A DNA stretch of 64,000 bases from Thermoplasmatales archaeon E-plasma. Its GTDB lineage: Archaea > Thermoplasmatota > Thermoplasmata > Thermoplasmatales > Thermoplasmataceae. Below the pieces are notes generated by a model. That model had not been told where the DNA came from. It made no database searches and saw only the letters and a program-made list of their open reading frames with translations. The stretch covers positions 186,001-250,000 of the forward strand of contig KI542675.1 in NCBI GenBank assembly GCA_000496135.1, in the 5' to 3' direction. Made by a program: the position numbers and the translations under genes. Below, piece by piece: positions 38,328-44,673 of the stretch (positions are counted from its first letter, which is position 1; the number at the start of each line of letters is the position of its first letter).

Positions 38328-39863
38328 CTAAACTGTCTTCTCAGGATTTGAGGACGGCAATGTGGCAACTTTCAGCTTTCTCGCCTTCTTTCCTGTGCCA
38401 AGAACCTCCTCAGCGGTAAGAGTAAGAATGGCTGCAAGGCCAAAGGCTGCTGCAGATATTATGAAGATTATGAAATAAGCGGAAGGAGACGGAAGTGGTG
38501 CATATACTGGTTGGTTATTATATGAGCCTACCAGGTAAACGGCTGTTATGGTCGACATTATTGATCCGGCTATGGGTGCTCCTATACTGCTTCCAACATT
38601 CCTGAATGTTCCGTTCATGGCAGTTGCCAGACCCATATCCCTGGGATTCACCGTGAGGATAATGAGGTTAATTAATGAGGCGTTCATAAGAGACAGACCA
38701 CCGCCGGTAAAGAATTCAAGGAAGAGTATCTCATCGTAACTCGTGCTGTATGCCATTAGGAAAAAAGCCACTGCTGCAATGGAAGCACCAAGAATTGCAA
38801 GGGGTTTTACCCCGGTTTTCGAAACCATCTTTCCGGTGACAATTGCCAGGAAGAATATACCAAGGGCAAACGGGACAAGTGAAAGGCCTGTTCCAAGAAT
38901 GGAAAGGTTAAAGCCTGCAGGTGAAGGGTCTTCAAATTTGTATGTAAGCGCCTGCATTGCAAGAAACATGCCCATTCCTGAAATTGAAAGTATTATGTTT
39001 GCCACCATGACATTTCTCATTGAGAGAAGCTTGAAATGGATTATTGCTTCCCCTCCATTGAGCGAATACCGTCTTTCGTATATGAGCAAAGGAAACAGCA
39101 AAATTATTCCTGTCATAACAAGGCCAATGGTGGAGGTTGAATACCATCCCCATGATGATCCTTCAGATAGTGCGAATACTATGGATGCCAGAGACAGGGC
39201 AAGAAGGGTAGCTCCAATATAGTCAATCTTCACTTCCGGTCTTCTGAATCTTGATTCCTTAACCATGACGAATGTTATAACTGCCAGAAATATAATAAAA
39301 GGAATCGCAGAATGGTAGGTCATTCTCCATCCAAAGTCATTTGAGATAAGCGAGCCAAGAGGCAATGATATTGCAAAACCAACTCCAAACATGGCACTGA
39401 TAAGGGCCTGTGCTCTAGGCACTATTTCTCTTGGAAATTCTTCCCTGACAAGGCTCATGCCCAGAGGCATAATTGCCAGTCCAATTCCCTGGACTGTTCT
39501 TGCAGCAATCATGAAATCATATGTGGGCGAAAAACCTGTTACGGATACAGATATGGAATAGATCACAAGAACAATCGTGAGCATTTTCTTCTTTCCGTAC
39601 AGATCTCCAAGCTTTCCTATGACAGGTGTAAGAGCAACGCCGCCAATGAGATACGTGGAAAGAAGCAGACTTGCCTGTGCTACAGAAATGTTGAACTCTT
39701 TCTCAATGGCAGGCAGCGACGGGGTAAGCATCCCCTCAATATACATAACAATAAGGACAAGCCCTGCAAGAATGAGCATAACCCTAAGGGCATATTTAGA
39801 ATCGAACTCTTCTTTTGACTTGAAATTTTTATCATCAATCATATCATTTTCCATTTCATTCAC
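38328..39863 (-). CDS. MFS drug-exporter-like transporter, DHA2 type (second copy)
   Basis: 511 residues with about 14 hydrophobic segments. YIEGMLTPSLPAIEKEFNI is the first TM, GKLGDLYGKKKMLTI is motif A, ARTVQGIGLAIMPLGMSLV is the motif B region, and GFAISLPLGSLISNDFGW is motif C-like. A proton-driven exporter of hydrophobic compounds is expected. Its start overlaps the MarR gene by 8 bases, forming the same MarR-MFS cassette as at 783-2897 but clearly diverged. Confidence 0.88.
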   Translation of the reverse strand: MNEMENDMIDDKNFKSKEEFDSKYALRVMLILAGLVLIVMYIEGMLTPSLPAIEKEFNISVAQASLLLSTYLIGGVALTPVIGKLGDLYGKKKMLTIVLVIYSISVSVTGFSPTYDFMIAARTVQGIGLAIMPLGMSLVREEFPREIVPRAQALISAMFGVGFAISLPLGSLISNDFGWRMTYHSAIPFIIFLAVITFVMVKESRFRRPEVKIDYIGATLLALSLASIVFALSEGSSWGWYSTSTIGLVMTGIILLFPLLIYERRYSLNGGEAIIHFKLLSMRNVMVANIILSISGMGMFLAMQALTYKFEDPSPAGFNLSILGTGLSLVPFALGIFFLAIVTGKMVSKTGVKPLAILGASIAAVAFFLMAYSTSYDEILFLEFFTGGGLSLMNASLINLIILTVNPRDMGLATAMNGTFRNVGSSIGAPIAGSIMSTITAVYLVGSYNNQPVYAPLPSPSAYFIIFIISAAAFGLAAILTLTAEEVLGTGKKARKLKVATLPSSNPEKTV

Positions 39864-40341
39864 CAGACTTTTTTATCTTTGATTCAACAGAATTATGAAG
39901 AATGCCTGTAAGTTTTCCAAGAAAATCAACAGCAATTTCAAAATTCTCAACAGGCATTGAATTCAGAGCCTCCTCTATGAGACCCTGATTATGCTTCTCA
40001 AGGCTGTTAACAAGAGCTTTTCCCTCATGGCTCAATTCTATTGCCACAATTCTCCTGTCATTTTCATCATGCGTTCTGATAATGAGATTTTCATTTTCCA
40101 TTGAATTCAGAATCTCGGAGACTGCAGGAAGGCTGATACCCAACAGTTCGGAAATTTCCGAGGTCTTTCTTCTCCCATGATAATAGAGGAACTTCATGAG
40201 GAAGAATTTTGGTATTGTAATTCCTCTGGTTCTCAATGAGCCCATCTGAAGAAACATGATCTCCTGAAGTAACGTTCTGAGGGACTTTGTAAATTCAGAT
40301 ATTTTACTTCCGTCCTGTGATCCTTCATTGGAATGATTCAT
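39856..40341 (-). CDS. MarR-family transcriptional regulator (second copy)
   Basis: 161 residues. IPKFFLMKFLYYHGRRKTSE and ISELLGISLPAVSEILNSME are the winged-helix core, and HDENDRRIVAIELSHEGKAL is the wing with DRR. The long C-terminal helix mediates dimerisation. It directly precedes and overlaps the MFS gene it presumably represses. An inverted repeat with the shared TAGTTAGGA element lies 28-47 bases upstream of its ATG. Confidence 0.86.
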   Translation of the reverse strand: MNHSNEGSQDGSKISEFTKSLRTLLQEIMFLQMGSLRTRGITIPKFFLMKFLYYHGRRKTSEISELLGISLPAVSEILNSMENENLIIRTHDENDRRIVAIELSHEGKALVNSLEKHNQGLIEEALNSMPVENFEIAVDFLGKLTGILHNSVESKIKKSGE

Positions 40342-40530: not shown

Positions 40531-40605
40531 GCTCCGATGGTGTAGTCCGGTCAAGCATATCGGCCTTTCGAGCCGACGACCCGGGTCCAAATCCCGGTCG
40601 GAGCA
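40531..40605 (+). tRNA. tRNA-Glu (anticodon TTC)
   Basis: Acceptor GCTCCGA pairs with TCGGAGC, the anticodon stem TCGGC/GCCGA encloses CTTTCGA (anticodon TTC, codons GAA/GAG), and the T arm is CCGGGTCCAAATCCCGG. Discriminator A, no encoded CCA. A taaatataag box lies about 30 bases upstream. Confidence 0.95.
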
Positions 40606-40680
40606 TAGTAAATTTCATTCTATTCGCAGTTAAAGGAAATCAGCGAAGAGCAGATTTTCCATAAATTTTTGTTTCAATAG

Positions 40681-40774
40681 ATACCATTCTCTCCTGATTG
40701 AAAGTTGACTATTCCACCTTATTAATCAATCCCCCATAATCCCACATACCATTCTCTCCTGATTGAAAGTTGAC
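40681..40774 (+). repeat. Two identical 29-bp repeats separated by 36 bp
   Basis: Copies at 40681-40709 and 40746-40774 are identical, both containing CTCCTGATTGAAAGTTGAC. The 36-bp interval (40710-40745) is unrelated to the repeat. Repeat length, spacer length and the internal GATTGAAAG, a common 3' end of archaeal CRISPR repeats, fit a one-spacer mini-CRISPR, but no leader, further units or cas genes are present here. An alternative is a tandem regulatory site: the second copy ends about 10 bases before the TATA-like box of the surface-protein gene. Confidence 0.55.
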
Positions 40775-40812
40775 AAAAGAAATATTTAAATTATCATGAT
40801 GCTTAATCATTA

Positions 40813-43800
40813 GTGAACGGTAAACGCTTTTTAATAATAGTCAGTATTTTAACCATAATAATGATGCTTGCACCTAATTTTCAATTGGTAGGTAATATTT
40901 CCAATAATTCTCAAATTCAAAGCAATCCGTCAAACGTTATGAATGTGCCAGTCAGAACTGATGTATCAGGTGGAATAATATCCATCAATATCAATACCGA
41001 CGCATTTATTGCTAATGGAAACAGTACAATTTCTATCCTGAACACTCTGGGACTATCACCGGTGCAATATCTGTATTTAAACGATAAGACATCCATCACA
41101 TCAAGCGTCGCAGTTACTCCCAATGGTTCCTCTATTCTGGTAGGTACCTCCAATGATATGGGGTTGAACATTATCAATACGACAACCGCGCAGACTGATA
41201 AGATAATATTGACACCTGCAACAAAGGATGAGTCTAATATAACGGTATCTCCAAACGGGCATTATGCCTATGTTTCAGGTTCGAACACATATAATATTTC
41301 GGTCGTTTCTCTTCTGAATTACAGCGTAGTGAAGGTTCTCAACGTTTCATATGATCCCGGTAAAATGGTCATTTCTCCCAACGGAACAACAGGTTTTTCA
41401 TTCAGTATGGAGGGCCCAAATGGTGCAACATCCGAGAGCATTACAGAAATCAATACTGTAAACAACTCAGTTATAAGGAATGTTACTGACAACCTCTTAA
41501 ACAATCCCGATACAGGAGCAATTTCCCCCAATGGATCAATGCTCCTCATAGGCAACAATGGAAATGTAACCGTAACTGCCATAAACATATCCAACGGTGC
41601 ATTTAAAAATATCAGGGAAGTGCCTACACAGGTGGAGACAAAGAGCATCACCTTCAATTTGCAGGGAACACTGTTTTTCTTTGTTGGAAAAAACCCAGCA
41701 GTACCACCATTCTCGCATGGGGGAGCAACTGCAGAATTATATTCGGCAACTACATTTGGATATGACTGGTCATTAAACTTAACAAAGACAAATTCCTCCA
41801 CTGCAAACGGTATGATATATCTTTCTTCATCAAACAGAATATTTGTCAGTGTGGCAAATCCAGACAGAATAGTTGAGGTAGGAATAGAGGGGACACCCGG
41901 ATCACCCTGTCTGAAGAATGAAGGAAACCTGACAAATCCATTGACTCCAGGCCAGATGTCATATTTTCCCACTTCATTCCTTGGAAGTTTCATGGTATTT
42001 GAGAATGGATTGCCATCAAACAGCAAATGGGATATTAATTTAGGCGGATTCACTTTCTCCTCCAACAAATCATATATTAACGTGACAGCATATTATGGAA
42101 AGCAATCATACGGTTTAACCGCACCAAACTTTTATGCTTTCCATAACTCCAGCGGTTATCTCAACGTTAATTTAACCTCTTCATACAGCTTCAGGGCCTT
42201 TTACTCATTGAATTATAGCCAGAGCAGAAATTATGCAATATTAACTGAAAATACCACATGTACAGGGTCTCCGGTTTTCAGTACTTTGAACAACACATAC
42301 CTTGCATCTCTACCAACCGGTTATCAACCATTTTCCAACGCCATAACCCCTAATGGGACCTTCTTGGTTACGCTGGACAATTATCCAACACCCTCTCTGA
42401 ATGTAATAAATATGCATACATTCAAGCAAATCGCCAATATCTCACTGCCAGCCGAAAAGAGCCCATGCTTTGTTTCAATAAACCCGGATGGCCTTTATGC
42501 CTATGTGGGTGCGTGCAGTTACAATCTTTCAGTAGTTTCACTTAACACATTCAGCGTTGTTAAGGTACTTAATGTAAGCTATGACTCCACCCATATGGCA
42601 TTCCTGCCAAACGGAACAGAAGGCTTTGTTACGACTGGAGAAACCTACAATTGCATTGGAACGCCTAGGAATTTTACTGTGATTAATACAGAGAATAACA
42701 CTGTTATAAAAACTGTATATAACCCCATTCTAAATTGTTCATTTGATGATGCTGTTTCACCAAATGGAACTTATCTGGTAATTCCAAATTGCAATAATCT
42801 TACAATATTTAATACAAAGACGCTAAAGATAGTGAAGAATCTGCATTCAAATGAATTCGGTTTTGATGTTGCTGAATTTAGCTCAAACGGATCGAAACTC
42901 TATGTTACATCGAATTATGGAGGCACCTACAATTTTAGTGAGATATGGATGAATAATTTCACTTTACACACAATGATCTCCGCACAATCAATATCTATAG
43001 GTCAAAATTTTGCCTTCAATGGAAATGAATCTGAAGTGTACCTTACGAATTTTGGTTCATCAACGGAAGCTTATAACATGAACAATCTTAGCCAGGTTAC
43101 CAGTATACCGTCAGGAGCCAATCCATTTTCAAAAATATTGATTCCCGCATCTTCATATTATGGTTCGGTTACTTTTATGGAGAACGGATTGCCTGCAAAC
43201 ACACCATGGTCAGTAACACTAAGCGGTTTGAAATACGGTTCAGGCAGTTCAAATATTACCGCATATTCCTATGCAGGTTTACAGAATTATTCCATTAATA
43301 TACCAGCCGGATATTCACTTTCAGTAAGATCCAGTGGTCAGATCATGGTGTCATATGAAAATACCACTGTGAGGTTAACATTCATCCCCACAATCATATT
43401 TGAAGAAACCGGACTCGGTTCGGCTCCTGTCTGGTATCTGAATATTAAGGGATATAACACATCAGGCAAAATCACCTCTGGTACTTACAGCATGGGTCTC
43501 CCCCTTGGCTCATATGAAGCCATAGCAACTTCACCCTATGCGCAGACATATTACCTGAATTTCTCCTTCAGTACAACAGGTCAGACTTTCACAATTCCAT
43601 TCAAGGAACAATATAACTTTTCAGTTTCTCAAACAGGTTTATCAAATGTAGTATGGTATGTCAACGTAACAAACAAAACAGGAATTGTTTCTCAGATGAG
43701 CGGAACAGGTTCAACCTTATCAGCGAATCTGATCAATGGATCATACAACTATACCGTTGCATCATCCAACAAGATCTATAAACCCTCACCCTATGATACG

Positions 43801-44673
43801 CATTTCACAATAAGTGGTTCATCATATGCAGTTAGAGAGCCTTTCACTACCCTGACATACAATGTAACATTCTCTGAATCAGGGTTGCCTTCCGGCACCG
43901 CATGGTATGTGAATATCACCGGGCAAAACTCATCAGGACCAATATCTGCAGGATCATCTTACTTCAAAAACCTCACAAACGGTACATATTACTATTCCAT
44001 ATGGGCACCAGACAAGAACTACTATGCAAATTCATCCAACTTCATTGTAAACGGAACACATAAATTAATACATGTGAAATTCATAGAATCGTTCTCTGTC
44101 ATATTCAGTGAATCTGGTTTACCATCTTCCACGATATGGTATGTTAATATTACTGGTCAAAAGCCATCAGGACCAATAGCATCAGGTTCAACATTCACCA
44201 TCTCTCTACCAAACGGATCATACCAATATAATATTGCAACAAACAACAAGATATACCATGCACCCGCATCATCGTTCACAGAATCTGCAGGATCTCCATC
44301 ATCAGTTTCGGTAACATTTTCACTTTACACATATACAGTAACATTCACAGAATCAGGTTTGCCTTCCGGCACCGCATGGTATGTGAATCTCTCAAACGGG
44401 ATGAAGTCAGGAGCAATAACAACATCCACATATTCATTTTCTTTAACAAACGGATCTGTGAGCTATACTATATCGGGAACATCAGGCTATTCTGCAAACA
44501 GAACTTCAGGAAGCTTTACAGTTAACGGGAATAATGTGGCAATATCTGTTAAATTCAGCAAACCGTCATCGCCTTCATCATCGATAACAGCCATAGAAGA
44601 ATATTCAATCGTCGGTGCAGTTGTGGCATTAGCACTTATTGGAGCATTCATATGGAAAAGGAGGTCTCCATAA
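40813..44673 (+). CDS. Giant surface protein: YVTN-type propeller repeats plus GLP-type repeats, C-terminal anchor
   Basis: 1286 residues. Signal peptide at 1-28. Residues about 60-400 and 490-790 contain Ile/Val-rich NHL/YVTN-like beta-propeller repeats (VTPNGSSILVGTS, VSPNGHYAYVSGSNTYNISV). Seven repeats with E-x-GLP or GLS followed by WxVN or WYxN (at about 400, 795, 875, 940, 1015, 1100 and 1180) follow, e.g. FSESGLPSGTAWYVNITGQ. Dozens of N-glycosylation sequons are present. The C-terminal TM (YSIVGAVVALALIGAFIW) ends in KRRSP. It is an extracellular, membrane-anchored adhesin or S-layer-like protein. The GTG start is about 20 bases after a tttaaatt box. Confidence 0.8.
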   Translation: MNGKRFLIIVSILTIIMMLAPNFQLVGNISNNSQIQSNPSNVMNVPVRTDVSGGIISININTDAFIANGNSTISILNTLGLSPVQYLYLNDKTSITSSVAVTPNGSSILVGTSNDMGLNIINTTTAQTDKIILTPATKDESNITVSPNGHYAYVSGSNTYNISVVSLLNYSVVKVLNVSYDPGKMVISPNGTTGFSFSMEGPNGATSESITEINTVNNSVIRNVTDNLLNNPDTGAISPNGSMLLIGNNGNVTVTAINISNGAFKNIREVPTQVETKSITFNLQGTLFFFVGKNPAVPPFSHGGATAELYSATTFGYDWSLNLTKTNSSTANGMIYLSSSNRIFVSVANPDRIVEVGIEGTPGSPCLKNEGNLTNPLTPGQMSYFPTSFLGSFMVFENGLPSNSKWDINLGGFTFSSNKSYINVTAYYGKQSYGLTAPNFYAFHNSSGYLNVNLTSSYSFRAFYSLNYSQSRNYAILTENTTCTGSPVFSTLNNTYLASLPTGYQPFSNAITPNGTFLVTLDNYPTPSLNVINMHTFKQIANISLPAEKSPCFVSINPDGLYAYVGACSYNLSVVSLNTFSVVKVLNVSYDSTHMAFLPNGTEGFVTTGETYNCIGTPRNFTVINTENNTVIKTVYNPILNCSFDDAVSPNGTYLVIPNCNNLTIFNTKTLKIVKNLHSNEFGFDVAEFSSNGSKLYVTSNYGGTYNFSEIWMNNFTLHTMISAQSISIGQNFAFNGNESEVYLTNFGSSTEAYNMNNLSQVTSIPSGANPFSKILIPASSYYGSVTFMENGLPANTPWSVTLSGLKYGSGSSNITAYSYAGLQNYSINIPAGYSLSVRSSGQIMVSYENTTVRLTFIPTIIFEETGLGSAPVWYLNIKGYNTSGKITSGTYSMGLPLGSYEAIATSPYAQTYYLNFSFSTTGQTFTIPFKEQYNFSVSQTGLSNVVWYVNVTNKTGIVSQMSGTGSTLSANLINGSYNYTVASSNKIYKPSPYDTHFTISGSSYAVREPFTTLTYNVTFSESGLPSGTAWYVNITGQNSSGPISAGSSYFKNLTNGTYYYSIWAPDKNYYANSSNFIVNGTHKLIHVKFIESFSVIFSESGLPSSTIWYVNITGQKPSGPIASGSTFTISLPNGSYQYNIATNNKIYHAPASSFTESAGSPSSVSVTFSLYTYTVTFTESGLPSGTAWYVNLSNGMKSGAITTSTYSFSLTNGSVSYTISGTSGYSANRTSGSFTVNGNNVAISVKFSKPSSPSSSITAIEEYSIVGAVVALALIGAFIWKRRSP

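Follow-up and report, generated by a model that had tools for sequence, protein, structure and literature searches.

A 29-bp direct-repeat pair beside a surface-protein promoter as a possible off-target CRISPR spacer integration in a Thermoplasmatales archaeon

Two identical repeats upstream of a surface-protein gene

The window, a 64,000-nt stretch of the genome of Thermoplasmatales archaeon E-plasma, contains an intergenic region in which a pair of direct repeats abuts a promoter. From left to right, the locus comprises a MarR-type regulator gene on the minus strand (39856-40341), a plus-strand tRNA-Glu (TTC) gene (40531-40605), the repeats, a core promoter and a large surface-type protein gene. 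This last gene (40813-44673, plus strand) has a GTG start and encodes a protein of 1286 aa with beta-propeller-like repeats.

A first-pass annotation of the window had described two 29-bp repeats with a 36-bp interval, and this description is confirmed. Copy 1 (40681-40709) and copy 2 (40746-40774) are exactly identical, with the plus-strand sequence ATACCATTCTCTCCTGATTGAAAGTTGAC; they start 65 bp apart and enclose a unique 36-bp insert (40710-40745). The flanks of this repeat-insert-repeat unit are not duplicated, and the 29-bp sequence stands on both sides of the insert. The locus thereby has the form of a CRISPR array, in which identical direct repeats of ~23-50 bp alternate with unique spacers of similar length, with one spacer only. 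The repeat is not palindromic, and a stem-loop in the empty site obtained by joining the flanks across a single copy was set aside, as it scores only slightly better than those of shuffled sequences (z -1.4).

Chance is excluded as the origin of the 29-bp pair. With up to 3 mismatches allowed, the whole 1.66-Mb genome contains no third copy of the repeat. In a survey that covered about 1.65 Mb of this genome, direct repeats of at least 16 bp spaced by at most 400 bp included no other CRISPR-shaped duplication outside its arrays; what else matched was the two CRISPR arrays, surface-protein genes of modular build, tRNA-like pieces and a small number of duplications that were short or of another shape. 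Nor did 0.8 Mb of two relatives that carry cas1 contain a comparable duplication. Tandem duplication of a 65-bp unit was rejected as the origin of the pair, as no second copy of the insert follows copy 2 or precedes copy 1. Two other candidate pairs were likewise set aside. One, of 15 nt, shares the 65-bp spacing (40790/40855), is partly coding and most likely arose by chance; the other consists of copies of GATTGAAAG that lie 75 bp apart in coding-looking sequence (G000:C4:24078/24153), with duplication limited to the core.

The core promoter of the surface-protein gene, with the BRE/TATA-like sequence AAAAGAAATATTTAAATT (40775-40793, plus strand), begins one base past copy 2, at 40775. As judged by eye from orthologous promoters, this promoter is conserved: its GAAAAG..ATTTAAAT style and the gene start are common to relatives at 50-71% protein identity. 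The nearest named orthologues lie on two contigs of the metagenome-assembled genome (MAG) LSA5.bin89 (Thermoplasmata archaeon). The 29-bp repeat is absent upstream of same-genus orthologues, whose best matches (16-18 of 29) are at background level. Since relatives have the core promoter and gene start without the repeat, the repeat pair is no conserved part of the promoter. Congeners have diverged at the repeat site, and DNA homology to one of them, G002, resumes at window position 40775. In this congener (G002:C44:13549-16218; L069), ~2.2 kb of unrelated DNA parts the tRNA-Glu gene from the orthologous surface gene, which marks the intergenic site as variable; a second G002 orthologue of the surface gene is located elsewhere.

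Resident CRISPR-Cas systems and their repeats

No cas genes were seen in the window, in agreement with the first-pass annotation; two cas loci and two arrays sit outside it on the same contig, roughly 18-46 kb left of the window edge. Array 1 (G000:C3:150379-155250) has 72 repeats of 31 bp, GTAAAAGTCTAACTCCTAGAGAGATTGATAG, with spacers of mostly 36 bp, and adjoins a type I-D-like set of genes for Cas6, Csc2/Cas7d, a Cas3-like helicase, Cas4, Cas1 and Cas2. Among the 76 other genomes of the family that were searched, none yielded an array of its repeat. Array 2 (G000:C3:166614-167670) has 15 repeats of 36 bp with spacers of 36-39 bp, and adjoins type I-G genes that include a Cas4-Cas1 fusion. 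Between Cas6 and Csc2 lies a 957-aa protein (L065:15873-18746; G000:C3:141872-144745) with no PADLOC or Pfam family match; its position suggests the role of large subunit (Cas10d/Cas8-like) in a divergent type I-D-like system. In the I-D-like locus, a frameshift near a TTTTCCCCCC homopolymer run interrupts cas1 (L066:3034-3995; G000:C3:149033-149994), with the N-terminal part in one frame and the remainder in another. The split could stem from a genuine disruption, from a slippery tract or from a base-calling error in the homopolymer.

Two properties connect the repeat pair to array 1. The first is insert length: spacers of this array are most often 36 bp long (52/71 spacers), which makes the CRISPR-like dimensions remarked on in the first pass real. 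The second is sequence. Read on the minus strand, the 29-bp unit, GTCAACTTTCAATCAGGAGAGAATGGTAT, aligns end to end with the 31-bp array-1 repeat at 18 of 29 positions with one 2-nt gap. A match of this quality has p=0.0018 against random genomic 29-mers (0.18%), taken over both resident repeats, both strands and all gap positions, and p=0.0012 against shuffles (0.12%) when the array-1 repeat alone is tried on both strands, values that are somewhat optimistic because the likeness was spotted by eye ahead of the test. The plus-strand reading scores lower (13). Both the 29-bp unit and the array-1 repeat start with GT, and in both GAGAGA lies exactly 13 nt from the distal end. The leader-side flank bears a weak likeness to the array-1 leader (13/30, p=0.06). 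In the minus-strand orientation that we propose from the repeat, for the insert as well, copy 2 would be leader-proximal.

Off-target integration and competing explanations

We interpret the repeat-insert-repeat structure, at a probability of about 0.57, as the product of one off-target (non-canonical) event in which Cas1-Cas2, most likely those of the resident I-D-like system of array 1, integrated a spacer. It would then be a plausible, if unproven, instance of an accident whose kind is already known. In this scenario, Cas1-Cas2 loaded with a 36-bp prespacer would attack the minus strand between ...CTTTT and GTCAAC, with the leader-like side beside the TATA box. The second strand would be attacked 29 bp away, at a distance measured from the internal GAGAGA motif, and gap filling would leave the 29-bp target, as which we propose copy 1, duplicated on either side of the new spacer.

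Several observations argue for such an event. An exact repeat-spacer-repeat with unduplicated flanks is the signature of two staggered strand transfers followed by fill-in, and the insert has the length most common among array-1 spacers. The likeness to the array-1 repeat at both ends, the position of GAGAGA and the shared GT point the same way. The resident Cas6, Csc2/Cas7d, Cas3-like helicase, Cas4, Cas1 and Cas2 count in favor of integration as well, as does the fact that the structure is the only one of its kind in the genome. Off-target integrations favor sites like the leader-repeat junction (PMC6895254), and integration by Sulfolobus solfataricus Cas1-Cas2 is non-specific without host factors (PMC5815122).

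Other observations count against integration. The duplication is 29 bp long as opposed to the native 31 bp, a difference that a ruler motif with a fixed distance to the second cut would explain. In types I-B, I-E and II-A, a motif inside the repeat fixes the distance to the second cut, and a change of length on the other side of the ruler alters the duplicated length (PMC6895254). The weak resemblance of the leader-side flank also tells against integration, as does the lack of a protospacer for the insert. The first-pass annotation had suggested comparing the insert with viral and plasmid DNA; no protospacer was found in IMG/VR (exact 19-20-mers), phages, plasmids, the organism's own genome or 41 relatives. 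The resident spacers are likewise without convincing matches in the sequence searched, so this absence says little. A match of the insert antisense to the surface gene (40959-40977, 16/19) was discarded as weak (p=0.04 within the gene, E=29 genome-wide). Finally, the broken frame of the array-1 cas1 at the TTTTCCCCCC run weighs against integration, as the gene may be dead now, or the break may be a base-calling error. It may be that this cas1 died after the event, that the reading is an error or that the I-G Cas1 acted instead.

If integration did occur, the resulting one-spacer "neo-CRISPR" is probably an inert scar, with the core promoter of the surface-protein gene left intact. We regard as highly unlikely a more far-reaching version, in which the type I-D-like Cas1-Cas2 created an archaeal neo-CRISPR by applying a GAGAGA ruler to a foreign site, yielding a "repeat" of 29 rather than 31 bp, the insertion altered expression of the surface protein and the writing machinery acts as a local mutator.

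The strongest rival, although an unlikely one, is a repair scar made without CRISPR, in which fill-in of a long-staggered break would have duplicated 29 bp and end joining or template switching would have supplied a 36-bp filler fragment. Such repair predicts the same anatomy, and would suit both an insert without a protospacer and a 29-bp unit that is not a resident repeat. It does not predict the 36-bp length of the insert or the likeness to the array-1 repeat (p about 0.002), nothing comparable occurs elsewhere in 1.65 Mb, and the filler has no source in the organism's own genome.

Improbable, in our assessment, is that the copies serve regulation in tandem, as a pair of 29-bp operators to which a repressor or activator would bind 5' of the surface-protein promoter. 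The first-pass annotation had placed the repeats just upstream of this promoter, which holds (copy 2 ends at 40774), and had gone on to propose a regulatory role. Their site directly 5' of the conserved BRE/TATA element and the nearby MarR-type regulator gene would fit such a role, but no copy above background occurs at orthologous promoters in the genus, the genome has no further site at up to 3 mismatches, at co-regulated genes or elsewhere, the repeat lacks the symmetry of a palindrome and identity over 29 bp exceeds what an operator needs.

A one-spacer array, functional or relic, that belongs to another CRISPR system and is read on the plus strand with the repeat end GATTGAAAG, is very doubtful: it draws on a sub-threshold Rfam CRISPR-DR6 match (40671-40704, 19.8 bits versus a gathering threshold of 39), but this match covers only copy 1 and 10 unduplicated upstream bases (GTTTCAATA...ATTGAAAG), the repeat has no exact match in viral or genome collections, and the TTGAC shared after GATTGAAAG is left unexplained. 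The first pass had offered an orphan mini-CRISPR as one reading of the pair and had suggested searching the full genome for the repeat and for cas loci that share it; the 29-bp repeat matches neither resident array repeat, nor does any array in the 117 genomes of the order carry it, and it belongs to no cas-linked repeat family among them. The suggestion that GATTGAAAG is an archaeal repeat end probably reflects coincidence, given that TTGAC follows it inside the duplicated unit and that the significant likeness is on the other strand.

Relation to known integration events

Off-target spacer integration and neo-CRISPR loci were reportedly described by Nivala, Shipman and Church in 2018 (Nat Microbiol), who are said to list natural candidates in Yersinia pestis and Sulfolobus islandicus. 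To our knowledge, few such integrations have been seen in nature. Like neo-CRISPR loci, the structure described here has a single spacer between genomic copies that merely resemble the native repeat, away from any array in a genome with cas1-cas2. It differs in having a duplication 2 bp short of the native repeat and an archaeal, I-D-like system, and in that no protospacer was found. Orphan or mini-CRISPR arrays share the repeat-spacer-repeat arrangement without adjacent cas genes, but their repeats match a known cas-linked repeat, whereas the 29-bp repeat does not. Transposon and casposon insertions also lie between direct duplicates; here, however, the 36-bp insert is too small for a transposon and has no terminal inverted repeats. 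Casposon target-site duplications are about half as long as 29 bp.

Passages of PMC9456107 and PMC11788318 cite Nivala et al. 2018 for off-target integration that gives rise to neo-CRISPR loci. The kind of event is already known; its archaeal I-D-like setting and the suggested ruler would be the new elements. Natural off-target integrations bear on the birth of new CRISPR arrays and on the fidelity of Cas1-Cas2 in vivo, and this locus points to a ruler motif, open to testing, within an archaeal type I-D-like repeat.

A further observation concerns the surface-protein genes. Near-identical 237-bp tandem modules occur in such a gene elsewhere on the contig (L099:12166-13790; G000:C3, about 361.6-363.2 kb). 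These modules are related to the C-terminal domain of the 1286-aa protein in the window, and matches resembling them number dozens per genome across the genus.
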